NCBI GenBank assembly: GCA_009772895.1
Contig: WOUP01000028.1
Coordinates: 1-38,758 of the forward strand
DNA length: 38,758 nt
DNA from: Puniceicoccaceae bacterium 5H
GTDB lineage: Bacteria; Verrucomicrobiota; Verrucomicrobiia; Opitutales; Oceanipulchritudinaceae
Direction: 5' to 3'
Part shown: one piece after another, positions 18,917 to 34,477 of the stretch
Numbering within the stretch: the first letter of the stretch is position 1
Layout of the letters: each line of letters begins with the position of its first letter
The notes under the pieces: model-generated
Database searches by the model: none
The model's input: the letters and a program-made list of their open reading frames with translations, nothing else
Told to the model about the DNA's origin: nothing
Made by a program: the position numbers and the translations under genes

Positions 18917-18946
18917 AAAAAACGCCCGCTCTGGGTGGAGCGGGCG
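18917..18946 (-). terminator. Rho-independent terminator of the giant GH92 gene
   Basis: Read on the minus strand, GCCCGCTC and GAGCGGGC (8-bp stem, extended by one C-G pair) enclose a 6-base loop and are followed by a run of six Ts. It lies about 90 bases past the stop of the 19033-26346 gene. In the remaining bases 18752-18916 I see only a 7-bp GGCGCGG/CCGCGCC inverted repeat without a T-run. Confidence 0.88.
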
Positions 18947-19032: not shown

Positions 19033-22000
19033 TTAGCGCACGTCTTCCTCGACTTGCAGGGCGTCCGAGAGGTCGGGGACCCACATGAAGAAGCGCGCGC
19101 CCGTGTAGTCGAGCACCGGCAGGACTTGCACCTTTCCGATCGGCAGCCAGGTGTCGAGATCCGCGCTGTAGTAGAGCTGCAGCTGGACGGAGATCTGGCC
19201 GTTTTCGTCGACTTCCATGACCGGGTTGCCGCCCCCGAGGCCGACGATGGTGTCGCTCGAGTAGAGGCCGAACTGCTCCTGCAGGTCGCGGTCGTTGCGC
19301 AGGGCATCCAGCAGGCTGCCTTGCAGGTCGGAGTCGAAGAGGCTCGGGTTGAGGCCGTGGGCGACTTCGACGCCGTCGTCGAAGAGGTCGCCGTCGGTGT
19401 CGGCGAGCATGGCGTCGGTGCCGATCTTCTGCTCCTGCAGGTTGGTCAGACCGTCGCCGTCGACATCGTTTTCTGCGGTGTAGTCGAGGCTACCGAACTG
19501 GTCCATTTCCCAGGCGTCTTCCAGGCCGTCACCGTCGGAGTCGACCGCGGTGGAGGCGATGGCGAAGTCACCCTGGTAGTCCAGGCGGGCCCAGACGACG
19601 TTGTTCTCGGTGTCGATGCCCCAGGTGCCGATCGCATCGTCGGCTTGCGCCGCGCGGTAGACCGGTTCGCTGGCGGCAGTGCCGAGGGTGGCCGTGACGG
19701 CGCTGATCCAGTCGCCCTCATCGGCATCGCTGGTGTCGGCGTCGAGGAAGGCCACGAGACTCAGTTGCTGTTCCTGCGAGAGCGACAGCGTGCTGTCGTC
19801 GTAGGAGAGCGCGAGCGTGTAGGCGTCGGAGCGGTTGCGCTGCGGGTGATTGCGCATGCCGTGGATGCTGGCGATGTCGGAGATCAGGCGCACGTCCTCA
19901 GCGTCATACCACTGGCTTTGCTGCACCCAGCCCACCGTGATGTTGCGGTAGAGGCCGAAGGTGGTGTTCTCCGCCGTGAAGTAGGTCGCATCGCTGTTGA
20001 CCCCGTCGGTGATGGCCAGACCGGTGCCGACAAAGCCGCTTTCCTGCGGCGCCTGGTCGCGGATGTTCGCGTCGTTGTAGCTGCCCTCGGCCGCGACGTT
20101 GAACTGACCGCCGTTGCGCGAATACGTGTAGGTATCCCAGATGCTCCAGTCCGTGAAGGTGCCGTCGGTGTTCTGCGGCGCCATGTAATTGTGCATGGAG
20201 ACGAAGTCGCCGTTGACCGTCAGGATCTGGAAGGCGATCGGCGCGCCATCGGTCGCCGTGCTGTCCACGAGGTGGTTCAGGCGCTGGTTGTCGACCGGCG
20301 CACGCTGCAGGCTGTAGAACTTCTCCGAGGCCGAGCCGGCGGTGAGGTAGAAGAACTCCGAGCGTGCATCGTTGTCGAGGTCCACCGCCATCGAGCGATC
20401 GTAGATGTGGTTGTGACCGGCGAGCCAGCCGTCGATCTCGTATTCGGCGCAGGCTTCGATGAAGGGCTGCGGGCCGGTGGAGATATACTCCGTCATGGCC
20501 GGGTGCAGGCTCATCGCAAACACGCCCGAGTGCGAATACGGGAAGATGTGCGCGTCCGGGTGATCGGCGCGGATCTCGGCCAGCTTGGCGCGCAGCCACT
20601 CGCTGTAGTTGACGCCGTCGCCGCCATCCCACTCATCGACCGCGATGAAGAAGGTGTTGGCGCCCGCATCGAGGACAAACGAGTAGTTGCGGTAGTTCGG
20701 GGAGCTTTCGCTGCCGCCCGGCACGTCGGTCGGGTCCACCAGCGGATCGTCGCCTTCGAAGAGCCACGGGAACGCCGTCTCCCACACCCAGGCCTGCGCA
20801 CTGGTCAGGCTGCTGGCGTTGGAGTCGTGGTTGCCGCGCACCGGATAGTAGTCGATGCCCGCTTCGCGCAGCGGCGTGGTCAGGTGCTGCTTGAGCAGTT
20901 CCAGCTGCGAGAGCTTGGAGTCGCCCGAGGAGTTGCCGTCGGTGATGTCACCGACTTCGACCACCAGGTCCGGCGCCAACTCGATGATCTTCTCCGCCAC
21001 GCCATTGGCTTCGTCCACCGGCACGCCGTTGGTCGAGCCCTGCGTGTCCGGCACCACGCCAAACTTCAGCGTCTCACCCAATACTGGCAGCGGTGCACGC
21101 GCCATTTCCGGCGCTTCGTCCGCATCCACCACGAAGGTAAACGTCACCGTGCCGTCCTCTCCGTCGGTCACGGAAATGACGAAGGTATTCTGGCCGATAT
21201 CGGCGGTCGTGGGCGTGCCCGAGAAGGTGCCGTCCTCATTGACCGTCAACCAGTCGGGGCCACTTACCTTGGTGTAGGTCAGCGCATCGCCATCCGGGTC
21301 GGTCACGTAATCGTTGAGGTCGCCCGTGTAGTCGGAGCCCATGTAGGCGCCCGTCTCGGCCGTCACCGTATCACTGTCCGGCGCCGGCGCATTGGCGGAG
21401 TAGATCTGCAGGCCCAGCTCGAGGTTGAAACCGACGTCGGAACTGTTCGGGGCCGAATTGTGGATCTCCACCGCCAACGTATTCTCGCCATCGACGAGTT
21501 GGCTGGCCGCCACGAGGTAGTTGAAGAACTTCGTTTCGTTCGAGCCGTCGATCGTGCCATTGGCATAGGTCTGGTAGTTGACGTCGCCGGACGGCATGTA
21601 GTCGCGGATGATCTCCTGCCCGTTCAGGTAGGCGATCACGCCGTCGTCGTGAATGATGTCGAAGCTCAGCGCCACGACCTCCGCGGCATGCTCCACCGTA
21701 AACGTGCGGCGGAAGTAGTAGGTCGGATACTTGTTGCCCGAGTCGTTGCCGTAGCTGATCGTAGTCGTGTTGTGGCTGTCGCCGTAGCCCAGCTTGGACG
21801 GGCCTTCCGCCCAGCTGCTGTCGTCAAAGCCGCTCGCGCGCCATGCCGTGCCCTGATCGCTGCCGTCGTCCAGATACTTCCACGCGTCGCCCGAGACGAT
21901 AGCGGGGGCTTCGTAGGTCGCTTCCGCGGCAGTGGGCTGGGCCGTGATCGTGCCGGAGGTGTCGACCACTGCATCGCCCTGCATGCCGACAACCTGGAAC

Positions 22001-25000
22001 TCGTAGTCGTTCAGGATCGGCAGGTGGGTATGAGTGTAAGAGGTTGTGGTCGGTGCGAGACCGGAGGCCAGCGTGAGCCATTCGTCGCTGCCGACCATAC
22101 GATAGAGCACGGACAGGGTTTCTGCGTCGTCACTCAATTCGCCACTCCAGGAGAGGGCCACGTGACCGTTGGCATCGACTCCACCCAGCAACACGATGTT
22201 GTTCGTCGGATTGTCGATCTGGCCTTGGGCGAGGATTTTCGCATCGCCAAGCTGCACCGCGTCGACGTCCACCCCACCGCCGACACGCAGGCCGACGTGG
22301 TTGAAGACGAAGGTCGAAGGCGACTGGTCCGAGCCGGTGAAGGCGGACAGCAACACCCCGTCGGAGGCGCGCACGAGTGCCGCATAATAGTCGATCGTGT
22401 CCGTTTCGGAGCGGGTCAGCGTCAGCACGACGCGGTAGGTCCCATCGGTCAGCTCCGGCGTGGGCAGGCGGTAATCAGCCAACGTGCGGCCTTCGCTGGA
22501 AGCGTAGAACGGCTGCGTGGCTCCCTGGTCCTTGCCGAGCATGACGCTCGCGCTGTCGTTGATGGCGTCGTTCGTCGCCAGATAGCCCGGCATGGCCAGA
22601 CCGCTCTGGTCGTTGCCGAAGAACAGGCCCCAACCGATCAGGTCGGAGTCGTTCGTTTCGCCTTCGATACCCGTCAGCGTCAGCGAAGTGCTGAACGTGA
22701 CGGTCGCGCCGGGCTGGTCGAGCGGTACGGCGTCAAAGGAAGCCATCACGGCCGTGTTGGCCGCGGCATCGGTAGCCGCGCCCCAGGTCGGCGCGTTGGT
22801 GTCGGCGCCCGAAAGGTCGACCGAACCATTGGCCAGCGTCCAACCGGTCAGCGCAACGGCATCGTCGCTGGTGACCGCCGCGAAATCGGAGCCCGTGCCC
22901 CAGACGTTCGGGTAAGCGCCCATGACCAGGTCCAGCGTGGAGCCGTTGGTGATGTCGGCATGATGAATCTCCGGCACGTCCAGCGCGGTGCCGTCGAGCA
23001 TCGCGGATTGGACGAACAGGTTCTCATCTCCCGCATTCTCCGCCGTGATCGTGAAGGTCTTGCCGTCGGCGACGTTGAAACGGACCTCCGGCACGCGCGG
23101 GCCGTGCACGTAGTAGACGTCCTGTGTGGCCATCGGGAAGAAGCCCGCCGTGTTGAAGAAATAGAGCGAGGCCATGGCGCCGGAGTCTTCATCGCCCGGG
23201 TAGCCGCTCTCACTGTAACGATCGCGCAGCTGAGACGCCCAGTAGGACGTCAGATACGGGCGATCCGCATAGCTGAAGAGGAAGGTCGTCTGGAAGCCCG
23301 GCTCGTTGGTGTAGTCGACGTAGGCGCCGCTGCCCTGCTCCATCGCGAACTCGAGGCGCTGGATGAAGCGGGCATGCCCCCCCATCAGCTCGACGAGTTC
23401 ATCGCGCTCGTGCGGGACGTTGAACGAGTAGTTCCAGCTCGTACCCTGGTAAAAACCGGAACCGGAGGTCGGTGCATCGCCGAGGAAGTCGCCATTGCGA
23501 TTGCGCCCGCGGATAAAGCCCTTGAAGCCGGCGTCCGTCGCGGATGCATCCCACACATTGCGCCAGTTGCCGGCGCGCTCGAACAAGGCCGCGGCCTCCG
23601 CGTCATGGCCCAGGGACTCGGCGATCGTGGCGGCGGCATAGTCACCATGAGCAAAGCCGAGCGTGGAGGAAGCCGAGGCGAGGCGGAAGTCGTAGCCGTT
23701 GGCATCGCCGTCGGTCGAAACGTAGCCGAGGTCGCGGTAGTCCGGCGTGCGGCGGTTGGCGTTGAACTCGAGCAACGGCCAGACTTGCTGCCAGTCGATG
23801 CCCGGGATGTCCTTGACGAAGGCGTCGAGGATCACGCGGTCCACTTCGTCCCCACCCTGGCCGACCTGGTAGTCCTTGCCCATGATGAAGGCGGTCTCCG
23901 CATGGCCGTTGCGCTGGAAGCGCTCGGCGAAGGAGTTGACGTTGCCGGCCACCGCATCGGGGTCGACGATCGCCAGTAGCGGGAAGAGCGTCTGCCAGGT
24001 ATCCCACAGCGTGTAGTGATCGTCCCAGAAGTCGGCATCTGCCGGCCAGCCTGCCGGATCGCCCGTGCGGTTGCGGGGTTGGATGAGGCTGTGGAAGAGC
24101 GCGGTGTAGAGCTTGCGGGCTTCGGCGATGCTGATGCCGGGCGTCTCGATGGAGCCGAGAGCTTCGTTCCAACGTGCCTTGGCGGCAGTTTCGAGACCTT
24201 CACGGTCCCAGGCCGGGATCTCGTCTTCGAGATACTGACGCGCGCGATCGACCGAGGCGAACGAGACAGCGATCTTGAGGCGCACCGTCTGCGTGGTATT
24301 GGTGTCGAAGCGCATCCAGGCACCCATCGGCTGTCGGGAGTCGATGGAAGCGCTCAACGTGCCGTCGCTGGCTGTGCTGCCGACCCAGGTGCCGCCCGAG
24401 GTGGGCGTCGCGTCGACCACGGCGTAGAAATAGACGTTGTACTGGGCGGGGTTCCAGTTGCTGTCGAAGGTGCCGCCGCCGCTGATCGTGCCGTTCTCGA
24501 GGTCCACCTCGACCGAGCCGTTGAGCATCGCGTCGGTCCGGCCCAGTTTGCGGGCCACGTCGAAGTTCAGGCGCGCGTCGTCGGACGCGGGAAACTCGAA
24601 CTCGTAGATCGCGGCGTTGTCGGTCGGAACGATCTTCACGGCGGTGTCCCAGCCGGTCAGCGTGCCGCTGAAGGCATACGGGCGGGCGTCGATGTCGCTG
24701 AGGCGCGAGCCGTTGTCGTCTTCGTTGGTCGCCTGGCCGATACGGGGCGAAACGAGGAAATTGCCGTAGGACAGCGTCGACGAGCCCGAACCGGAGGCGT
24801 GGAGCTGCGAAAAGCCGACCACGGGGCTGCCGGAGGCATAGCCGGAGGCGGCCGCGGCAACCGTGTCGGGGCTGGGATAGATCGAGCCGTGCGGCAGGAC
24901 CGGACCCGGAACCGTCGAACCGGCACCCGTGACGCCGATGAAGGTGTCGACGAGGTCGGCCGGTTCGGTATCGGGATCGACCAGCGGATCCGGCAGGTCG

Positions 25001-26346
25001 TCGGACAGCGTCAGCCCGGGGTTTTGATAAAGCTGCAGGGCCTGCGTCTCGGTCACGAGGCCTTCGTAGATCTGGAAGTCGTCCACATCGCCGTTCAGGT
25101 CGTCCAGGACCGAACCGTTGCGCAGGAACGCGCCGATCGCGAAATAGCGAATCGGGTTGGTCGTGATGGAAACGGGAACGTCGCTCACTCCAGCCAGCTG
25201 GCCGTCGATGTAGACCAGGCGCACGTTTTCCTGATAGACGGCGACGACGTGGTGCCAGAGGCTGTCCGACACGTCTGCGCCGGTGTTGATCTCGCCTTCG
25301 TTGCTGCCGCTGCCGCCGTTGCGCTGACGCACGCGCAACCCGAGACCGCCGGTTTCGCGGGTCGCGATCTCAAAGCCGGTATTATAGGTCGCGGAGTCCG
25401 TCGAAGCGGTGGTCATGCCCATCACGGCCTGGGTGTTGGCCGCGGCTTCATCCGGCGTCTGGCGCACCCAGAACGCGACGCTGAAGGGATCGAATTCGCT
25501 GTAATCGCCGAGGATCGCCAACGCATCACCGGCCTCCAGATCGGCCAGCAGGTAGTCGTCCGAACCACCCAGCTGGACGAAACCGCCCGCCGCACCGTCG
25601 GAGCCCATAAACGCCACCGAATCGCCATTGACGGTCAGCGACGCGACGCCGAGGGCGTCCGAAGCATCGCCGTCGAGCTTGTAGTGGTGCGCCAGCTTGG
25701 CCGCCGTGGCGGGGTCCGGATACTGGTTGAAGCTCAGGTTGTCGATCGCGTGACGCCCGTTGGAACCGTAGGTTTCCGAGGTGCGGTCGAAGGTGAGCGT
25801 GTAGTCTTCGCCCAGCTCACCGGTGAAGTTCGGGGAGACCGTGATGACGGAGGCATCCTTCGACGCGTTGTCGAGCGCCACGTGCTGGCTCCATACCAGG
25901 TTGTTGTGGGAGTCCGTCAGCGTCAGGTCCCATTCCGTGACCCCGGACGTCTCTTGGGTGTGGACGAAATCGAAGGAATTCAGCACCAGCGCATAACCGG
26001 CGTCTGCCTTGAAGCTGATGGTGTGAAAGTCGATGTCGAGCTGGCCGATACGCGGGATATCGCCCTCGTTGTCCCAGGCGCCCCCGCCCACGGTGAGGTT
26101 TTCGAGGTCGGTAAACCAGGAGCTGGTGTGGATATCCCACTGAGCATCCCAGGAAAGCGCGATATTGGGCGTGGTACCATTCGTGACCACGTAACCGTTG
26201 CCATCGGCCGTGGCATTGGAAGCCAGATCGGAGGGGACCGTAGTGTTGCTCCCCCCTAGCTGGCCAAAGCCAACGACCGTGGCCTGGCTGGTACTAGCGA
26301 AACCGGCTAGTAGCCCGAGCGTTAAAAGAGCTGAAGAAGTTTTCAT
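19033..26346 (-). CDS. Giant secreted GH92 mannosidase + calcineurin-type phosphoesterase multidomain protein
   Basis: The 2437-residue exported protein has a signal peptide (1-22), an N-terminal beta-domain (about 23-210) and a LamG-like domain (about 215-440). The GH92 alpha-mannosidase (about 463-1150) shows DTFIGVTGAGSTVPGPVLPHG, GTSWNYSFNVPHE, NEPGFQTTFLFSY and GYPGDEDSGAM, with base pair D1052/D1054. The general-acid Glu is replaced by Q967. After lectin/Fn3-like sandwiches come a galactose-binding-like domain (about 1480-1650) and a cadherin-like domain (about 1660-1745). The calcineurin-like phosphoesterase (about 1755-2010) has PDTQ (D1767), GDITDGN, GNHDS (N1839/H1840), YSHSG and GHNH (H1978/H1980). 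Thrombospondin-3 calcium repeats (about 2270-2330) and a short C-terminal domain follow. No PEP-CTERM signal is present. It should act on exogenous phosphorylated mannans or glycoproteins; that is inference. Confidence 0.9.
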   Translation of the reverse strand: MKTSSALLTLGLLAGFASTSQATVVGFGQLGGSNTTVPSDLASNATADGNGYVVTNGTTPNIALSWDAQWDIHTSSWFTDLENLTVGGGAWDNEGDIPRIGQLDIDFHTISFKADAGYALVLNSFDFVHTQETSGVTEWDLTLTDSHNNLVWSQHVALDNASKDASVITVSPNFTGELGEDYTLTFDRTSETYGSNGRHAIDNLSFNQYPDPATAAKLAHHYKLDGDASDALGVASLTVNGDSVAFMGSDGAAGGFVQLGGSDDYLLADLEAGDALAILGDYSEFDPFSVAFWVRQTPDEAAANTQAVMGMTTASTDSATYNTGFEIATRETGGLGLRVRQRNGGSGSNEGEINTGADVSDSLWHHVVAVYQENVRLVYIDGQLAGVSDVPVSITTNPIRYFAIGAFLRNGSVLDDLNGDVDDFQIYEGLVTETQALQLYQNPGLTLSDDLPDPLVDPDTEPADLVDTFIGVTGAGSTVPGPVLPHGSIYPSPDTVAAAASGYASGSPVVGFSQLHASGSGSSTLSYGNFLVSPRIGQATNEDDNGSRLSDIDARPYAFSGTLTGWDTAVKIVPTDNAAIYEFEFPASDDARLNFDVARKLGRTDAMLNGSVEVDLENGTISGGGTFDSNWNPAQYNVYFYAVVDATPTSGGTWVGSTASDGTLSASIDSRQPMGAWMRFDTNTTQTVRLKIAVSFASVDRARQYLEDEIPAWDREGLETAAKARWNEALGSIETPGISIAEARKLYTALFHSLIQPRNRTGDPAGWPADADFWDDHYTLWDTWQTLFPLLAIVDPDAVAGNVNSFAERFQRNGHAETAFIMGKDYQVGQGGDEVDRVILDAFVKDIPGIDWQQVWPLLEFNANRRTPDYRDLGYVSTDGDANGYDFRLASASSTLGFAHGDYAAATIAESLGHDAEAAALFERAGNWRNVWDASATDAGFKGFIRGRNRNGDFLGDAPTSGSGFYQGTSWNYSFNVPHERDELVELMGGHARFIQRLEFAMEQGSGAYVDYTNEPGFQTTFLFSYADRPYLTSYWASQLRDRYSESGYPGDEDSGAMASLYFFNTAGFFPMATQDVYYVHGPRVPEVRFNVADGKTFTITAENAGDENLFVQSAMLDGTALDVPEIHHADITNGSTLDLVMGAYPNVWGTGSDFAAVTSDDAVALTGWTLANGSVDLSGADTNAPTWGAATDAAANTAVMASFDAVPLDQPGATVTFSTSLTLTGIEGETNDSDLIGWGLFFGNDQSGLAMPGYLATNDAINDSASVMLGKDQGATQPFYASSEGRTLADYRLPTPELTDGTYRVVLTLTRSETDTIDYYAALVRASDGVLLSAFTGSDQSPSTFVFNHVGLRVGGGVDVDAVQLGDAKILAQGQIDNPTNNIVLLGGVDANGHVALSWSGELSDDAETLSVLYRMVGSDEWLTLASGLAPTTTSYTHTHLPILNDYEFQVVGMQGDAVVDTSGTITAQPTAAEATYEAPAIVSGDAWKYLDDGSDQGTAWRASGFDDSSWAEGPSKLGYGDSHNTTTISYGNDSGNKYPTYYFRRTFTVEHAAEVVALSFDIIHDDGVIAYLNGQEIIRDYMPSGDVNYQTYANGTIDGSNETKFFNYLVAASQLVDGENTLAVEIHNSAPNSSDVGFNLELGLQIYSANAPAPDSDTVTAETGAYMGSDYTGDLNDYVTDPDGDALTYTKVSGPDWLTVNEDGTFSGTPTTADIGQNTFVISVTDGEDGTVTFTFVVDADEAPEMARAPLPVLGETLKFGVVPDTQGSTNGVPVDEANGVAEKIIELAPDLVVEVGDITDGNSSGDSKLSQLELLKQHLTTPLREAGIDYYPVRGNHDSNASSLTSAQAWVWETAFPWLFEGDDPLVDPTDVPGGSESSPNYRNYSFVLDAGANTFFIAVDEWDGGDGVNYSEWLRAKLAEIRADHPDAHIFPYSHSGVFAMSLHPAMTEYISTGPQPFIEACAEYEIDGWLAGHNHIYDRSMAVDLDNDARSEFFYLTAGSASEKFYSLQRAPVDNQRLNHLVDSTATDGAPIAFQILTVNGDFVSMHNYMAPQNTDGTFTDWSIWDTYTYSRNGGQFNVAAEGSYNDANIRDQAPQESGFVGTGLAITDGVNSDATYFTAENTTFGLYRNITVGWVQQSQWYDAEDVRLISDIASIHGMRNHPQRNRSDAYTLALSYDDSTLSLSQEQQLSLVAFLDADTSDADEGDWISAVTATLGTAASEPVYRAAQADDAIGTWGIDTENNVVWARLDYQGDFAIASTAVDSDGDGLEDAWEMDQFGSLDYTAENDVDGDGLTNLQEQKIGTDAMLADTDGDLFDDGVEVAHGLNPSLFDSDLQGSLLDALRNDRDLQEQFGLYSSDTIVGLGGGNPVMEVDENGQISVQLQLYYSADLDTWLPIGKVQVLPVLDYTGARFFMWVPDLSDALQVEEDVR

Positions 26347-26493: not shown

Positions 26494-27714
26494 TCAGGCC
26501 GCGCTGGAGTCGCGACGGCGGCGGCGCAGCAGTAGGGTGCCCCCCAGCGCGCCGCCCATGAGAATCAGCGCGTAGGTGGAGGGTTCCGGAATCACCGCGA
26601 TGTGGGTCAGATCGCTGTCGAGGTCGTAGGTCGCGATCGTGCCTTCGATTTCCTGGAACCAGAGCTCGTCGAGGATGCCCGTCTGGTCGCCGGCGAGGAA
26701 AATGTCCCCGCCCTGGAAGTCGAAGAGCCCGAGGCCGCCGTCTCCGAGCATGATGCCCAACGCGTTGAGCACCCCGTCCGTCATCAGGTAGGTGCCTTCC
26801 GAACCCGCGGCGTGGGACAACACGATGTAATTCACATTGAGCGTGCCGCCGTTCTGGATGAAAGTCCCGTTGACCTTCGGGTCGATATTCGGATCGGCAT
26901 CGCCCACCCAAATGTCGCCCTGCACGGTCATGACCCCGCCGTTGAGCGTAACCTGGGCGTTGTTCTTGTTGCCGATCGCCATCGCACCGCCCGCTTCGAC
27001 ATTACCCACGGTGAAGCTGCCGCCATTGATAATGATTTGGCTGACGGTGCCGTCCGCGAAGTCGCGGCCGACTACGAAATACTTGAAATTGTTGAAGGCG
27101 GCTGAGCCCGAGTCGACCTGCAGGATCGCGCCTTTGGAAACGTAGGTGCGCATGTTTCCAGTGGTAGCCGTAAAAGTCGCCGTCCCGCCGCTGACTGTGA
27201 AGCGGTCTTCACTGCTGTTCTTGCCCATGTGCACCCCGTTCGAGGCGGACGTATTCACATTCAAGCTACCGCCACTGAGGCTATAAGACCCCTTGGAGCT
27301 GCCGCCGTCGGAGAGAAACCAGCCGCGGGAAACGGTCGAATTGACCGTGCCACCCGTCTGGACGACGGAGCCTGTATTCTGGTTCGACACGAGGAAATAG
27401 TGCCCGTCCTGGGTCAAGGTGGCGTCATCGCTGACCGTCAGCGTGGCCGGACCGTTGGCGGCATTGATCAGACGACCATTGATCACGAGCTCGCCCGTGC
27501 CGTCGAGCGTGGTATCGGCGTCGCGCGTGAGGTTTTCCGAGATCGTGGCGGTACCGGAGCTGATGGTGACCACATCCGCGGCGGCCGGGACGGTATCGTC
27601 GTCCCAGTTGGTAGCGACATTGTAATCACCTTCCAGGCCGTCCCAGGTGCCGAAGGCATGGGCCATGGAAGATGTGCACAGCAATGCAGCTACGAAGCAA
27701 GAAGCCGTTTTCAA
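26494..27714 (-). CDS. Beta-helix/autotransporter-like PEP-CTERM surface protein
   Basis: The 406-residue exported protein has a signal peptide (MKTASCFVAALLCTSSMAHA). A long run of short beta-strand repeats follows, for example GTATISENL, GTGELVINGRL, QTGGTVNSTVS, SLSGGSLNVNTS, TVSGGTATFTA, INGGSFTVGN, LNGGVMTVQGDIWVG and QNGGTLNVN. This resembles the right-handed beta-helix of autotransporter-associated repeat proteins common in Verrucomicrobiota. The C-terminus is PEP-CTERM: IPEPSTYALILMGGALGG then LLRRRRR. The start codon is TTG at 27714; no in-frame ATG lies between it and an upstream TAA. It is likely to be a surface structural or adhesive protein, with no catalytic motif. It precedes the giant GH92 gene in the same direction. 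Confidence 0.85.
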   Translation of the reverse strand: MKTASCFVAALLCTSSMAHAFGTWDGLEGDYNVATNWDDDTVPAAADVVTISSGTATISENLTRDADTTLDGTGELVINGRLINAANGPATLTVSDDATLTQDGHYFLVSNQNTGSVVQTGGTVNSTVSRGWFLSDGGSSKGSYSLSGGSLNVNTSASNGVHMGKNSSEDRFTVSGGTATFTATTGNMRTYVSKGAILQVDSGSAAFNNFKYFVVGRDFADGTVSQIIINGGSFTVGNVEAGGAMAIGNKNNAQVTLNGGVMTVQGDIWVGDADPNIDPKVNGTFIQNGGTLNVNYIVLSHAAGSEGTYLMTDGVLNALGIMLGDGGLGLFDFQGGDIFLAGDQTGILDELWFQEIEGTIATYDLDSDLTHIAVIPEPSTYALILMGGALGGTLLLRRRRRDSSAA

Positions 27715-29773: not shown

Positions 29774-31774
29774 CTACTCGGCCTTGACGACCGCGACGAA
29801 ACCGCCCTTGGCCGGCATCCGCTTCGGCAGGCTGGTCATGTCGTGCTGGAAGTGCGCGTCTTCGTCCGCCCAATAGACTTCACCCTTGCCGCGCGGCAGG
29901 AAGCGGGCGTGGGCGTAGCTGACCTTCGCCGGCTTGTCCTTGGCGTTGATGCCCGCGATATACCAGGTATCGCCGGAACGCCGCGCCAGCACGGCGTATT
30001 CGCCCGGGAAGCCGTCGATGAAACGGGTTTCGTCCCAGGTTTTCGGCAGGTCGCGCAGCAAGTCGCGGATAAACTCCGGCTGCTCGGCCATGCCCCGGTC
30101 GGTTTCGGCAAAGTGCTGAATGCCCGAGTAATAGAGCACCGAGAGCGCCAGTTCAAAGTCCTTGCGGTCGCGCATCTCGATGTTGGGGATGCCCGAGAGC
30201 CCCATCGGCGTGAAGTCCATCGGGTCGAATACATTGCGCGTAAAGGGCACTGTCGCCATGTGCTCGGGGCCCTTGTCGGCGTCAAACTGGGCAAAGGTCA
30301 TGAACTCGAAGCCGCGCACCGACTCCATCGTCATGAGATTCGGATAGGTGCGATGCCAGCCGCGCGGGAAAGTCGTGCCGTGGAAGTTGACCAGTAGTTC
30401 GTATTGGGCCGCGTCAGTCATGAGATCGCTGTAGTACTGCATCACCGACTGGCCATCACCGGGGAAGAAGTCGATCTTCACACCGCGAATGCCCATCTCG
30501 TGCAGACGTGCGAACTCCTCGCGACGCTGCTCGGGATCGATGAGCTTGCCCTTGGGCGTGTAGGGCGTGGTGTTCCATTCGCCCGAAGAGTTGTACCACA
30601 GGATCAGCCCCACATCTTTTTTCGCCGCGTAATCGGCCAACTCCTCGATGCGGTCGTAGCCGATATTCCGGTCCCAATAGACGTCGATCAGGCAGTAGTC
30701 CCAATCCATGTCGGCCGCGTAGTCGATAAAGCGCTTCTGCACGTCATACACGATGGAGTCGTCCTTCAGCAGGGCCCAGCTCCAGGCCGCGTGGCCCGGC
30801 TGCATCCAGTCCTCGGCCGAGTAACGAGCCGGCTCCGCCAAGTCGGTCCCCAAGGCCGATTCCACGATACCGCCCAGCCCGTCGGAGACCACCACCAGGC
30901 GCCACGGCATCTCCCACGGCAGGGCAGACTCCGGCTTCACGGGTCCGTTTTGCACGCGTTCGGGCTCCTGCGGAAAGCCGATGCGGAGGGTCTGCCCCGC
31001 CGCGTCCTGCACCAGATGGCTGGCGCAGTAGTGGCCATCTACCGAGGTTTCGGAGAGCAGCACCCAATTGTCGCCCACCTCAAACAAGGCCGGGAAGACC
31101 CAGCCCTGGAAGGGATAGACGTTGACCATGTCGTTTGCTTCGGCCGCACGCTGCTCCTGCTCTTGCAGGAAGGGCTGCAACGTATCGAGCGTCACGCCTT
31201 GCTGGTAATGCTCTTCGTAGGAAGGCTGTGTATGCGACCACCCGGCCTGGGCGACCGGCATCGGCTGGATCCACGCCCGCGTGTCTTGCGGGAAGGTAAA
31301 GCCGGTCTGCTCTTGCTCGATGTGCCAGCGCTCCTCGCTCGAACCGGGCAGGCGATAACGGAACGCCAGCCCGTCGTCGGAAAGCCGGAACACGATCTCG
31401 AGCTTCACATCGTCGAGATTGGTCAGCTCCACCACGCGCTCCTGCGCCTGGTAGTGCATTTGCAGCTGCTTGCCGTGGATGAGCGTGTAGTCGTCGGTGA
31501 CGGTGCGGGCGTCGGACACCTGGGTGAGCGCGAAGCCGTCGTGGAGGTTGGTCTCTGCACAGTCGAGACCGAGCAGGGAGGGTTGCAACACAGGGCTGCC
31601 GTCGAGGCTCAGCTCATAGCTCGGCACGCCGTTTTCACTGAGGTGGAACTGCAGTTGCAGGTCGCCATCGGGGCTTTCGAGCGTCATCTCGGCTGCCGCC
31701 AATTGGGAAGCAAGCAAGGCGAGTGGGGCGCAAGCCCAGCCCAGCAGTGAGGTTAGGGAGGTAGATCGGGGCAT
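29774..31774 (-). CDS. GH97-family alpha-glycosidase, secreted
   Basis: The 666-residue product begins with a signal peptide (MPRSTSLTSLLGWACAPLAL..., cut near LAAAEM). An N-terminal beta-supersandwich (about 30-260) carries SPDGDLQLQFHLSENGVPSYELSLDG, TVTDDYTLIHGK and LAFRYRLPG. A TIM-barrel (about 290-590) contains AWSWALLKDDSIVYDVQKRFIDYAADMDWDYCLID, GVKIDFFPGDGQ (about 432-443), NFHGTTFPRGWHRTYPNLMTMESVRG and TRNVFDPMDFTP, all typical of GH97. The aspartate in GVKIDFF occupies the place of the retaining-type nucleophile, suggesting an alpha-galactosidase-like retaining mechanism rather than the inverting SusB type (inference). Start chosen at the signal peptide; an ATG at 31813 adds 13 residues that run back across the upstream palindrome. 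It needs calcium in characterised relatives. Confidence 0.93.
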   Translation of the reverse strand: MPRSTSLTSLLGWACAPLALLASQLAAAEMTLESPDGDLQLQFHLSENGVPSYELSLDGSPVLQPSLLGLDCAETNLHDGFALTQVSDARTVTDDYTLIHGKQLQMHYQAQERVVELTNLDDVKLEIVFRLSDDGLAFRYRLPGSSEERWHIEQEQTGFTFPQDTRAWIQPMPVAQAGWSHTQPSYEEHYQQGVTLDTLQPFLQEQEQRAAEANDMVNVYPFQGWVFPALFEVGDNWVLLSETSVDGHYCASHLVQDAAGQTLRIGFPQEPERVQNGPVKPESALPWEMPWRLVVVSDGLGGIVESALGTDLAEPARYSAEDWMQPGHAAWSWALLKDDSIVYDVQKRFIDYAADMDWDYCLIDVYWDRNIGYDRIEELADYAAKKDVGLILWYNSSGEWNTTPYTPKGKLIDPEQRREEFARLHEMGIRGVKIDFFPGDGQSVMQYYSDLMTDAAQYELLVNFHGTTFPRGWHRTYPNLMTMESVRGFEFMTFAQFDADKGPEHMATVPFTRNVFDPMDFTPMGLSGIPNIEMRDRKDFELALSVLYYSGIQHFAETDRGMAEQPEFIRDLLRDLPKTWDETRFIDGFPGEYAVLARRSGDTWYIAGINAKDKPAKVSYAHARFLPRGKGEVYWADEDAHFQHDMTSLPKRMPAKGGFVAVVKAE

Positions 31775-31801
31775 AGGTCCGGTCACGTTAACCCACCGCA
31801 A

Positions 31802-31853
31802 CAACCGGTTCAACTATTCATCACTGGACCGTCAAACAAGTTCGCACCGGTTG
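31802..31853. promoter_or_regulatory. Paired CG-centred palindromes upstream of GH97 (LacI-type operator candidates)
   Basis: CAACCGGTTC (31802-31811) contains the perfect palindrome AACCGGTT, and CACCGGTTG (31845-31853) repeats its core. Each has the central CG step typical of LacI-family operators. Their centres (31806.5 and 31848.5) are 42 bp apart, about four helical turns, an arrangement suited to cooperative binding or looping by the LacI-type protein encoded at 33242-34306. Both lie in the 81-base gap before the GH97 start. Confidence 0.5.
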
Positions 31854-31855
31854 CG

Positions 31856-33205
31856 CTACCCCTTGGTCTGGAGCTTGATGACGCCTGCCCAGTCCTCGTC
31901 AGCCCGCTCACGCAATTCCCAGATCTGCTCGAGGTGGCGCTGAATGGTGGCGTCTTCGGGATTGATGTCCTGAATCGCCTCAAACTGCCGGATGGCGGCG
32001 TCCCAATGACCGTGACGAAAAGCGCGCAATGCGGACTGATATTCCGCGAGCGTCGCCAGTTTGCCATCCCGCACCTCGGGCGGATCGGCATCGAGGATCT
32101 CATATACGCCCACCGGCTGGGTGCGCCCTTTGACCTGAATCTGCCCGAGAAAACGTGCCTGCCAGCGCTCCGGCTCCTTCAGGCCGAGGAAAGTCGCCTC
32201 GCTCAGGATGATGCGCGCATTGTAGAGGCGGGTCAGCCCTTCGAGCCTTGAGGCCAGGTTGACGTTGTCGCTCGCGACGGCCCCCTGCATGCGTTCCTCT
32301 TCGCCCAGAATGCCCAAGGCCAGCAGCCCCGTATGCAGGCCGATGCCGATTTCGATCGGCTCCTGCAGCTCGGCCTGTACGTCTGCCCGATCGAGACGTC
32401 GGAAGATCTCCACTGCCGCCCGCACCGCCTCATCGGGCGTGTGGTCGAACAACGCCATGATGCCGTCGCCGTAATACTGGTCCACGAAACCGCCGTTATT
32501 GCGGATGATGGGGCTGACCTGCCGGAAATAGCCGTTGATGAACTGGAAATTCTGCTCGGGGGACAACCGTTCGGAGCGCTGCGTCCAGCCATGCACGTCG
32601 GAGAACATCACGGTCATCTCCCGCCGAATATGGTCCCCCAGCTTCACCTCGGTGATGGACTTCTTCTCGAGATAGGAAAGGAACTCCTGCGGGACGAAGC
32701 GCTTGAGCGCCTGGTTGAGGTTGGCCAGCTCCGCCGTGCGCTCCGCCACCCGCTGCTCCAGCCACGTGTTCTGACGCTCCAGGGCCTGCTGCAACTGGCG
32801 CAGTTTGAGGTGCGTCTTGATGCGTGCCAGCACCTCTGCCGGCTCAAGTGGCTTGATGAGGTAGTCTACCGCGCCCGCCGTTAATCCCCGCACCTTGTTG
32901 TCGGTCTTGCGCAGGGCGGTCATGAACATGACGGGCACCGCCCGAGTCGCCTCATTCGCCTTCAATTTCGCGCAGACGGCAAACCCGTCATCGCCCGGCA
33001 TCAGAATGTCGAGCAGGATCAGATCGGGCAGCTCGCTGGACGCCAACGCCAAGGCCTCCGCACCGTTACCGGCTCCGACCACACGATACTGGTGTACCTC
33101 CAGTAAATCGGTCAGGAACTCTCGGGTCGGGGCGTTATCATCAGCCACCAGAATAAGGGGGGCTACAGTCTGATTCTCACCAGCGAGACTCACTGCCTGA
33201 AACAT
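31856..33205 (-). CDS. Response regulator fused to a class III nucleotide cyclase domain
   Basis: The 449-residue cytoplasmic protein has a receiver domain (about 16-130; phospho-acceptor D66 in LILLDILMPGDDG, K118 in YLIKPL). A coiled coil (about 132-168) follows, then a class III adenylate/guanylate cyclase domain (about 190-372), and a C-terminal TPR-like stretch (YQSALRAFRHGHWDAAIRQFEAI...). The cyclase keeps both metal aspartates (D203 in MFSDVHGWT, D247 in YYGDGIMALF) and VNLASRLEG. The substrate-selecting Lys before GD is replaced by Q243 (GGFVDQYYGD), so nucleotide specificity or activity is uncertain. It lies 36 bases after the LacI gene on the same strand and may be co-transcribed with it and with GH97. 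Confidence 0.9.
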   Translation of the reverse strand: MFQAVSLAGENQTVAPLILVADDNAPTREFLTDLLEVHQYRVVGAGNGAEALALASSELPDLILLDILMPGDDGFAVCAKLKANEATRAVPVMFMTALRKTDNKVRGLTAGAVDYLIKPLEPAEVLARIKTHLKLRQLQQALERQNTWLEQRVAERTAELANLNQALKRFVPQEFLSYLEKKSITEVKLGDHIRREMTVMFSDVHGWTQRSERLSPEQNFQFINGYFRQVSPIIRNNGGFVDQYYGDGIMALFDHTPDEAVRAAVEIFRRLDRADVQAELQEPIEIGIGLHTGLLALGILGEEERMQGAVASDNVNLASRLEGLTRLYNARIILSEATFLGLKEPERWQARFLGQIQVKGRTQPVGVYEILDADPPEVRDGKLATLAEYQSALRAFRHGHWDAAIRQFEAIQDINPEDATIQRHLEQIWELRERADEDWAGVIKLQTKG

Positions 33206-33241
33206 GTAACGTAATTGCGTATCTGTAAAGCGCCGGGATAA

Positions 33242-34306
33242 TCAACCCGCATTTGCGCCCTCGCTGGGCAGGTATTCCCAGTGCTCCTGGGCCGCCTGCC
33301 AGCGCTGCCACATATGCAAGTTGTTGAGTTCCGGCAAGCTCCCCCCGGGTTGGAAGTGACCGCGCAGACCAAGGCAGGCCATGCCCCGCAATTGCGTGAA
33401 TCCAAGCCGCACGATCTGCGCATCCAGCCAATCTGCGGCCGCACGCCCCAGATCGTCGGAGGGCACCTGCCAGGACGCGCCCTCAGTCTTGGGCGCATCC
33501 TGGGCTGCCTGCAGTGTCACCAGCCCCAGCTCACGCCCGGGGCGGAACTTGAGCTGAGTCGCCTCCTTGGCCGCCTCCGGGAAGGCCGTCACCACGCAAC
33601 AAGGCAGTTCATGCTGCAGCCATTTGCGGAAAACCTTCGCATCCCACCGGTCGATCAACAGTGGCGGCACCGGCAGGTTGGCACCTTGCGGCACCAGCGG
33701 CTGCAATGCCTCCGGGACCACCCAGCCGACCCGATGGTAAGCCTGCCGCCGCAACTGGCGCGCCAGCGCGTGCAGGTCCAGGCGTCCGCTCCAGCCCAGC
33801 TGGGCCTCGCTCGAATCCGCATTCCAGCCCCAGATAGCCAAAGGGCGGTCCAGCACCGGCGGCTGCAGCGGCTTGAGTTCGCGATAATGCGGCTCCGAAA
33901 TCACCAGGCCCTTCAAGCCCTCTTCCACCGCTTTGGCCTCCAGGTCCGCCGCCCGCCGCATGGGCGAGTCGCCCTCCAGCGAAAGCGTCACCACGCGGTA
34001 ACCGAGGGATTCGGCCCGGTGCAGCAAGCCCTTCAATACCGCCAGATCCCAGGGCGTCTGAGCCTCGGCGTCTTGCACCCAACCGAGGGAAGAACGCGGC
34101 ATGCCCTGGCGCGCGCTTTGTTGACGGTGCGCCATCAGGGCCGAGAGCACCGGATCGCGCCGGTAGTTGAGCGACTCGGCCGCCTCCTTGATCTTCACCC
34201 GCGTGGCTTCCGGAATCGAAGGGTGGTCCCGCAGCGCCAGCGAAACCGTGGTGTAGTGGTAGCCAGTCTTGGCGGCAATATCGCGAATCGTCGTTCTTTT
34301 CGGCAT
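33242..34306 (-). CDS. LacI-family transcriptional regulator
   Basis: The 354-residue product has the LacI N-terminal helix-turn-helix: TTIRDIAAKTGYHYTTVSLALRDHPSIPEATRVKIKEAAESLNYRRDPVLSALMAHRQQ. The hinge reads RRDPVLSALMAHR, the form usual in Verrucomicrobiota. The remainder is a periplasmic-binding-protein-like effector domain with a degenerate sugar site. It should repress glycan genes until its inducer binds; likely targets are the adjacent GH97 and the divergent GH106. The start at 34306 matches the family N-terminus (MPKRTT). A longer frame up to 34450 extends across the promoter region and is rejected. The operator candidates at 31802-31853 and 34478-34489 support local control (inference). 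Confidence 0.93.
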   Translation of the reverse strand: MPKRTTIRDIAAKTGYHYTTVSLALRDHPSIPEATRVKIKEAAESLNYRRDPVLSALMAHRQQSARQGMPRSSLGWVQDAEAQTPWDLAVLKGLLHRAESLGYRVVTLSLEGDSPMRRAADLEAKAVEEGLKGLVISEPHYRELKPLQPPVLDRPLAIWGWNADSSEAQLGWSGRLDLHALARQLRRQAYHRVGWVVPEALQPLVPQGANLPVPPLLIDRWDAKVFRKWLQHELPCCVVTAFPEAAKEATQLKFRPGRELGLVTLQAAQDAPKTEGASWQVPSDDLGRAAADWLDAQIVRLGFTQLRGMACLGLRGHFQPGGSLPELNNLHMWQRWQAAQEHWEYLPSEGANAG

Positions 34307-34477
34307 CTTCTCTATCCCCGCCGGGCTCAACTGTATACCTAGAGCACGACACCCGACCTTGGCAAGTCTTGAAACCGAAAGCCACACCCTTTTACGACAT
34401 TCTTTTCCATAAATCCTCAGCAATAAATATAAGCCAAACGCCTTATTCAACCTCCACCGAAAGGGGCTCGGACGTGT

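Follow-up and report, generated by a model that had tools for sequence, protein, structure and literature searches.

Why would a single bacterial polypeptide join a family 92 glycoside hydrolase (GH92), with glutamine where the general-acid glutamate is expected, to a phosphoesterase? The question is raised by a gene on the minus strand, positions 19033-26346, of the window, a stretch of 38,758 nucleotides from Puniceicoccaceae bacterium 5H that makes up an entire contig (C38) of a 4.10-Mb genome. An earlier note on this DNA had proposed that the GH92 domain removes capping mannose from mannosyl-phosphate and that the phosphoesterase then removes the exposed phosphate. We analyzed the domains and active sites of the encoded protein, its relatives, and its genomic context.

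Domain architecture of the protein

The gene is an open reading frame of 2437 codons without a stop. By Pfam, its product contains, in this order, a LamG-type beta-sandwich (residues 285-435, positions 25042-25494; PF13385, 63 bits), a GH92 N-terminal domain (465-695, 24262-24954; PF17678 GH92N, 156.6 bits against a cut-off of 34.5), a GH92 catalytic domain (702-1143, 22918-24243; PF07971, 349.3 bits, cut-off 24.6), an Ig-like linker domain He_PIG (1661-1740, 21127-21366), a calcineurin-like phosphoesterase and a TSP3-type repeat (2269-2286, 19489-19542), all encoded on the minus strand. The phosphoesterase match (PF00149 at 1783-1982, 35.9 bits, cut-off 21.5) lies within what we call the metallophosphoesterase (MPP) module, residues 1745-2240 (19627-21114, minus strand). 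The GH92 region also matches NCBIfam TIGR01180 (277.6 against a cut-off of 249.55). The presence of a GH92 and a calcineurin-type phosphoesterase in one chain, claimed by the earlier note, is therefore confirmed, with GH92N, GH92 and Metallophos all over their cut-offs. Residues 1-23 (26278-26346, minus strand), judged by eye, resemble a signal peptide, and the 2437-residue chain is probably secreted. Directly 3' of the gene, a consensus scan found an intrinsic terminator-like hairpin at 18923-18946 (minus strand), in a region with 8 such hairpins observed against 5.3 expected.

The GH92 active site

In the alignment to GH92 proteins of known structure, Gln967 falls in the column of the Glu of the FTEG[NS]xW motif, which we take to be the published general acid, Glu533 in Bt3990 and Glu535 in Bt3130 (PMC10167667 and PMC5930347, among others). 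The codon is CAG at 23446-23448 on the minus strand, as previously read. The same column holds Gln in CcMan5 of Cellulosimicrobium cellulans (PDB 2xsg/4aq0), where GLYQGTLWQY corresponds to GFYQGTSWNY of the window protein; PMC5930347 reports that CcMan5 hydrolyses mannose from Man-PO4-Man linkages. The two proteins share the Tyr-Gln-Gly-Thr context, the Asp776 column and the base Asp, but CcMan5 belongs to a separate lineage, its group motif VPTVR[WF]ER is missing from the window protein, and the latter shows an identity of about 25-26% with the C. cellulans homologues retrieved. An assembly error as the source of Gln967 was rejected because the fused genes of three other genomes also encode Gln at this position (codons CAA, CAG and CAG).

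The general-base pair D1052-E-D1054 (23185-23193, minus strand) and the -1 subsite Asp782 are kept. Membership in GH92 is thus indicated by scores above the Pfam cut-offs and by the retained base Asp (D1054) and -1 Asp (D782), with the acid Glu replaced by Gln967. Gln at the acid column occurs as well in CcMan5, an accepted member of the family.

An AlphaFold2 model of residues 456-1155 has a mean pLDDT of 83.5 and a pTM of 0.89, and is poor at residues 818-833, the loop that sets the window protein apart from other GH92s. When the model was compared with solved structures, GH92 proteins made up the top 16 entries (Z 36.6-42.5; the next match has 16.6). Among them are the ordinary exo-alpha-mannosidases Bt3990, Bt3130 and NnGH92 (Z 38.5, 40.7 and 37.5), which share with the window protein the fold, the base pair and the -1 Asp782. 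CcMan5 is the lowest of the 16, and Z gaps this small are no test of specificity. The modelling suggested by the earlier note therefore bore out the GH92 fold, and left room for an acid elsewhere, at D833 or E834, given the bad prediction of 818-833.

In contrast to Bt3990, Bt3130 and NnGH92, the window protein has Gln in place of the acid Glu and a QGGDE loop (830-834, 23845-23859, minus strand) in place of the Cys-Met loop, and the +1 His of their 580-loop is not found at its place in the alignment. The alignment, gap-free from residue 830, equates the Met of the Cys-Met pair with Gln830 and the Cys with Gly829; an initial assignment of the pair to Val828-Gly829 was dropped. Gln1019, a His-to-Gln replacement in the 580-loop, was likewise dropped as a second marker, as it varies within both Gln-containing lineages described below.

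This unusual -1 loop, with Gln830 for Met, would be in line with the release of a terminal mannose bearing its own 6-phosphate, the MPP domain then turning mannose-6-phosphate into mannose. An analogous succession is described in PMC13063451, where PbGH92_1 acts as a 6-sulfate alpha-1,3-mannosidase and is followed by a mannose-6-sulfate sulfatase. Such a route would leave the loss of the acid unexplained, since the leaving group would be a sugar, and Met-to-Gln does not by itself demonstrate a different sugar, as AnGH92A, a fungal alpha-1,3-mannosidase that is active, likewise has Gln there (PMC12858847). We regard this route as improbable.

It could also be supposed that GH92 catalysis is lost and that the domain serves as a sugar-binding module guiding the phosphoesterase. 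Ala and Gln variants at the acid position of Bt3990 substantially lowered the activity on alpha-1,2-mannobiose, though they did not abolish it (PMC10167667). The retention of D1052, D1054 and Asp782 argues against lost catalysis, as do the compatibility of the same Gln with catalysis in CcMan5 (PMC5930347) and a dN/dS of the GH92 domain that is as low as that of the MPP domain or lower (see below), so that we consider a purely binding role very improbable.

Three GH92 lineages and the repeated origin of Gln at the acid position

We scanned bacterial and archaeal genomes for relatives, kept the best 80 of 164, corresponding to 79 loci, and added relatives found by surveying the order (132 genomes) and the phylum (387 genomes). 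Without duplicates and fragments, the alignment comprised 142 GH92 domains, which were sorted into 19 QGG, 76 CcMan5-type and 47 ordinary rows. The column counts leave out three partial sequences (L022, L017, L023), four duplicates (L029, L031, L053, L057) and one open reading frame fragment of L118. The acid column of the three partial sequences holds Glu in two and Asp in one (a 270-residue frame).

The QGG subfamily, which includes the window protein, is characterized by the loop QGG[DNS] (AGG in one row), and the CcMan5-type rows, from the best 80 of 164 relatives, by a loop of the form Arg-x-Glu, which with a single exception reads VR[FWNT]E. At the Gln830 column, an earlier sorting, which misplaced the QGG row L132 and the CcMan5-type row L077, counted Met in 46 of the 48 rows that it classed as other and Gln in 17 of 18 QGG rows.

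The acid column contains Glu in all 47 ordinary rows and Gln in all 76 CcMan5-type rows among the best 80 of 164 relatives, a uniformity that is partly built in, as the CcMan5-type loci were found with patterns containing the Gln motif. The QGG rows divide into 10 with Gln, 8 with Glu and 1 with Gly, the last being a truncated sequence, and the close Glu-bearing relatives in G220 and G364 keep the QGGDE loop. As Glu and Gln alternate within the QGG subfamily, Gln alone proves little about phosphate. The alternation is expected if the acid is dispensable for the QGG substrate, and equally if another residue has replaced it.

Several columns are common to the QGG and CcMan5-type lineages (the latter again from the best 80 of 164 relatives) and never occupied in this way among the 47 ordinary rows: Tyr966 (23449-23451, minus strand) in 19/19 and 76/76 rows, Asp776 (24019-24021, minus strand) in 18/19 and 75/76, and Gly940 in 17/19 and 69/76. 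The other two pairings of lineages against the third gave one such column (Gly832) and none. In sequence, Tyr966 and Asp776 adjoin active-site residues or lie within six residues of them. The D1054 column is conserved throughout, in 18 of 19 QGG rows (the remaining row has a gap), in 76/76 CcMan5-type rows from the best 80 of 164, and in 47/47 ordinary rows.

A tree of 31 rows selected from the 142, 18 of them QGG, places the QGG subfamily on one side of a branch with support 100/99. It needs four Glu/Gln changes, three of which are forced by well supported branches. A single Gln clade, in which the window Gln would be inherited from the CcMan5 group, was rejected by the AU test on these 31 rows (p 0.00016). 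Tree and test together thus imply that Gln arose more than once. The window protein has the Gln after Tyr at the acid column that is typical of the CcMan5 type; it lacks the VPTVR[WF]ER loop, reading YQVGQGGDEVD there, and its placement in the CcMan5 clade is the one rejected above. The likeness to the Cellulosimicrobium enzyme invoked by the earlier note does not, therefore, extend to descent of the window Gln from that group; the protein belongs to a separate subfamily. Being unrooted, the trees do not single out any one of the lineages (QGG, CcMan5-type, ordinary) as basal.

The alignment also bears on the possibility that the GH92 domain acts on ordinary glycosides with a moved acid, likeliest residue 833 or 834 (D833, E834) in the QGGDE loop, the MPP domain of this secreted chain scavenging phosphate independently. 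Within the QGG subfamily, Asp occupies column 833 in every one of the 10 rows with Gln and in 4 of the 8 with Glu (Fisher p 0.023, relatedness ignored). Overall the 833 column is acidic in 14/19 QGG rows, in 76/76 CcMan5-type rows from the best 80 of 164 relatives (always Glu) and in 7/47 ordinary rows (Asp), which speaks for a moved acid. Against it stands that the lineage in which this column is always acidic includes CcMan5, an enzyme reported to act on a phosphodiester. We consider a moved acid with an unrelated phosphatase rather unlikely, also in view of the fusions described below.

The metallophosphoesterase module and its partners

The MPP module is assigned to the calcineurin-like metallophosphoesterases by a score above the PF00149 cut-off and by metal-ligand motifs in 9 of 9 sequences, the window included. 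All nine share D1767, Q1769, D1800, N1839, H1840, H1939, H1978 and H1980; D1767, the first metal ligand, is encoded at 21046-21048, and H1978-N-H1980, the last motif (GHNHIYDRS), at 20407-20415, both on the minus strand. The complete calcineurin-type site reported some 800 residues beyond the GH92 motif is thus intact, and D1052 and D1054 as well as D1767, D1800, N1839, H1840, H1939, H1978 and H1980 are present as described in the earlier note or within the motifs it named.

A single-sequence search of the domain against solved structures gave no match, and the matches listed in a profile search, none of them significant, were all purple acid phosphatases (6/6, E 0.15-0.18). Purple acid phosphatases have a metal-binding Tyr in a GDxxY motif. 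The window motif is GDITD, with Asp1803 at the place of this Tyr in 9/9 sequences. The structure prediction of the domain, from a three-sequence alignment, is of low confidence (mean pLDDT 31.7).

Relatives of the module with at least 55% identity were found in nine of the 132 surveyed genomes, the window genome included; three more genomes, and a second copy in G033, gave weak matches only. The 387-genome survey yielded no MPP relative beyond those of the 132-genome survey at 1e-30. The module is joined to a Gln-type GH92 in four genomes from two families: the window genome, G055 of the same genus, and, as the closest named species with this fusion, Cerasicoccus frondis and C. maritimus (genus Cerasicoccus, Puniceicoccales, Verrucomicrobiota). 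Four others (G069, G020, G033 and G049; frames of 2259-2300 residues) have a second metallophosphatase domain instead of GH92. It was recognized by eye in each case and also by Pfam in G069, the only one scanned, where it resembles a 3',5'-cAMP phosphodiesterase (E 1.7e-7). In G022 the module stands in a 1029-residue frame, in which neither GH92 nor a second metallophosphatase was seen by eye. By its group code (g50) G069 belongs to the same genus as the Cerasicoccus pair, and so the partner of the MPP module changes within a genus. The cAMP-phosphodiesterase-like partner in G069 may again be a diester opener; a scheme with the partner as diester opener and the MPP module as monoesterase would fit both kinds of partner.

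By the NG86 method, the non-synonymous and synonymous values (dN/dS) between the window and G055 are 0.082/0.661 for GH92 and 0.133/0.569 for MPP, and between the two Cerasicoccus species 0.049/1.16 and 0.045/1.032. Synonymous change is at least four-fold the non-synonymous change in both catalytic domains and both genome pairs. Both domains are thus under purifying selection, and neither looks decaying. We recognized no description of a GH92-metallophosphoesterase fusion in the open-licence literature.

PAP2 phosphatases fused to CcMan5-type GH92 domains

A second kind of phosphatase fusion was identified in actinomycetes. A regular-expression search for the PAP2 motif gave nothing, and the domain was found by a family search and a profile. 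When 23 of the 76 CcMan5-type proteins (from the best 80 of 164) were scanned with Pfam, PAP2 was detected in five. All five matches, from a search of 12 genomes, exceed the curated cut-off and lie in the same reading frame as a Gln-type GH92, whereas none of the 19 confirmed Glu-type GH92s of these genomes shares a frame with a PAP2 match; the 12 genomes were chosen partly for carrying PAP2, so that 5/13 against 0/19 is not an unbiased rate, and the counts cover the frames typed for the acid residue.

With a profile built from the five proteins, a C-terminal PAP2 domain was found in 31 of the 76 CcMan5-type proteins from the best 80 of 164 relatives, in 0 of 47 ordinary and in 0 of 19 QGG proteins; the comparison of 31/76 with 0/47 is less biased, although 37 of the 47 ordinary rows come from Verrucomicrobiota. 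The motifs K-x5-RP and PSGH are present in 29 of the 31, and the five aligned proteins also have R-x5-H-x3-D. The other two lack the motifs in the matched stretch, one of them being cut by a contig end. The bearers belong to the genera Streptomyces, Kitasatospora, Actinacidiphila, Micromonospora, Actinoplanes, Schumannella and Mycetocola. The Schumannella soli protein, the first bearer by similarity to pieces of CcMan5, is 65.5% identical. In an earlier tree of 55 of 117 rows, the Cellulosimicrobium proteins fall inside a branch of nine rows, three of which are PAP2 bearers; because these three share one branch, the 31 bearers do not represent 31 events.

Like the window protein, the actinomycete proteins combine a Gln-type GH92 and a phosphatase in one chain, but their phosphatase is PAP2 rather than a metallophosphoesterase, that is, of an unrelated superfamily, and their GH92 is of the CcMan5 type. 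Two separate Gln-type GH92 lineages have therefore each been joined to a phosphatase of a different superfamily, and Gln-type GH92 domains have joined phosphatases at least twice. This pattern fits a GH92 product with an exposed phosphate, and another explanation is hard to find; if these domains acted on ordinary glycosides, the repeated fusion would be a coincidence.

Proposed reaction of the fused enzyme

On balance we lean slightly towards demannosylation of a mannosyl-phosphodiester followed by dephosphorylation, both by one chain. The GH92 domain would release an alpha-mannosyl residue, or one closely akin to it, from a phosphodiester, with D1054, together with D1052, activating the water. 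Because phosphate leaves easily, the acid Glu would be dispensable and Gln967 tolerated. Removal of the mannose would expose a phosphomonoester, from which the metallophosphoesterase domain of the same chain would then release the phosphate, giving free sugar and phosphate. Here we infer the substrate, the order of the reactions and the role of the MPP domain as a monoesterase. Of the earlier proposal, uncapping followed by dephosphorylation is supported by the Gln in the acid column matching CcMan5, by the shared Tyr966 and Asp776, by the PAP2 fusions (31/76, best 80 of 164 relatives, against 0/47) and by the constraint on both domains; the step from Gln by itself to phosphate did not hold, given the alternation in the QGG subfamily. 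The mechanism is plausible, and better supported than could be known from the sequence when the earlier note was written, for reasons that go beyond the Gln itself.

The wider proposition is that a self-contained phosphoglycan enzyme, for mannosyl uncapping and then dephosphorylation, would have been assembled at least twice, each time independently, by joining Gln-type GH92 domains to phosphatases unrelated to one another, MPP in Verrucomicrobiota and PAP2 in Actinomycetota, with acid-less GH92 chemistry evolving repeatedly; the comparisons made here leave this evenly balanced in our view. The diatom mannan pair PbGH92_1 and PbSulf2 similarly couples a GH92 with an ester-removing enzyme on a charged mannan, but involves sulfate and two separate proteins instead of a phosphoesterase in one chain (PMC13063451).

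If the proposition is true, a Gln-type GH92 with a fused phosphatase marks enzymes of mannosyl-phosphate glycans and provides a sequence rule for finding them; CcMan5 is the one characterized example that we recognized in the open-licence literature. An enzyme that both uncaps and dephosphorylates in one chain would have practical value as a reagent, too: when mannose-6-phosphate glycans are made, mannosyl caps are at present removed with mild acid or with an uncapping enzyme (PMC5992200). Finally, the QGG subfamily, with its alternating Glu and Gln, opens to direct test the question of when a glycosidase can dispense with its acid.

Genomic context and the candidate substrate

Of the three families searched in the whole genome, GH92 gave one match, the window gene itself, GH38 gave none, and GH76 gave one at the borderline (26.1 bits, neighbours included, against 25.9). 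The yeast-mannan scenario is therefore weak and yeast mannan is an unlikely substrate; phosphomannan, the polymer named by the earlier note, thus found no backing among the families searched. Another phosphoglycan, or a lipid-linked glycan, capped by a single mannosyl residue would fit equally well.

None of the 15 window genes tested has a counterpart in the flanks retrieved for the three orthologues (E 1e-8). The closest unfused relative, in G175 (66%), is flanked by a GH31 gene and a GH38 gene, and its five neighbours on a 15.5-kb contig include no phosphatase family. A GH20 gene lies beside the relative in G335, and G429 has a like gene, judged by its N-terminus. These GH31, GH38 and GH20 neighbours, which favour action on ordinary glycosides, read like N-glycan trimming.

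The gene neighbourhood is weak evidence for a phosphate substrate. In a survey of six kinds of phosphoesterase, PAP2 not among them, phosphoesterase neighbours were detected, besides the four fusions, at 2 of 13 unfused QGG, 1 of 75 CcMan5-type and 1 of 20 ordinary loci; the queries were taken from QGG and CcMan5-type loci (one from G069), so that matches there are self-hits. The two QGG loci are those of the Verrucomicrobia MAG L054, with an Exo_endo_phos gene that overlaps the GH92 gene and a PI-PLC-like gene, and G345, with a GDPD gene near its unfused QGG GH92.

Other genes and open frames of the window

Antisense to the gene for the GH92-metallophosphoesterase protein, an open frame of 1641 aa extends over positions 19054-23979 of the plus strand, and is probably a by-product of coding sequence at 64% G+C. 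The gene upstream of the GH92 gene (26494-27714) encodes a PEP-CTERM protein with glycine-rich, autotransporter-like repeats; a search of the flanking DNA retrieved with each of the three orthologues of the fused gene gave no match to it. Genes for a GH97 protein (alpha-galactosidase-like), a response regulator with an adenylate/guanylate cyclase domain and a LacI-type regulator are located at 29774-34450, and an InsA-type zinc-ribbon protein is encoded close to the contig end (37428-37886).

Related loci in other genomes

The C-terminal module of the window's protein is shared with proteins of about 2260-2300 aa that contain two metallophosphatase domains, as well as LamG domains (L047:5169-12002). 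In a Verrucomicrobia MAG (L054:3837-12748), an autotransporter-like repeat protein, an Exo_endo_phos protein and a LamG-GH92(Gln) protein are encoded consecutively, the latter two by overlapping open frames.

The Flavobacteriaceae BB24 locus (L056:927-12133) combines SusC/SusD genes and a PI-PLC-C1 gene with two adjacent GH92 genes, one of the CcMan5-type (Gln) and one of the QGG-type, the window's subfamily, but with Glu; this locus is possibly devoted to phosphoinositol-mannose glycans. Finally, a match to PAP2, a phosphatase unrelated to the metallophosphoesterase, was identified within an 866 aa frame of Cellulosimicrobium cellulans (the L112 genome, G494:C17:72901-80809), approximately 2.5 kb past two Glu-type GH92 genes.
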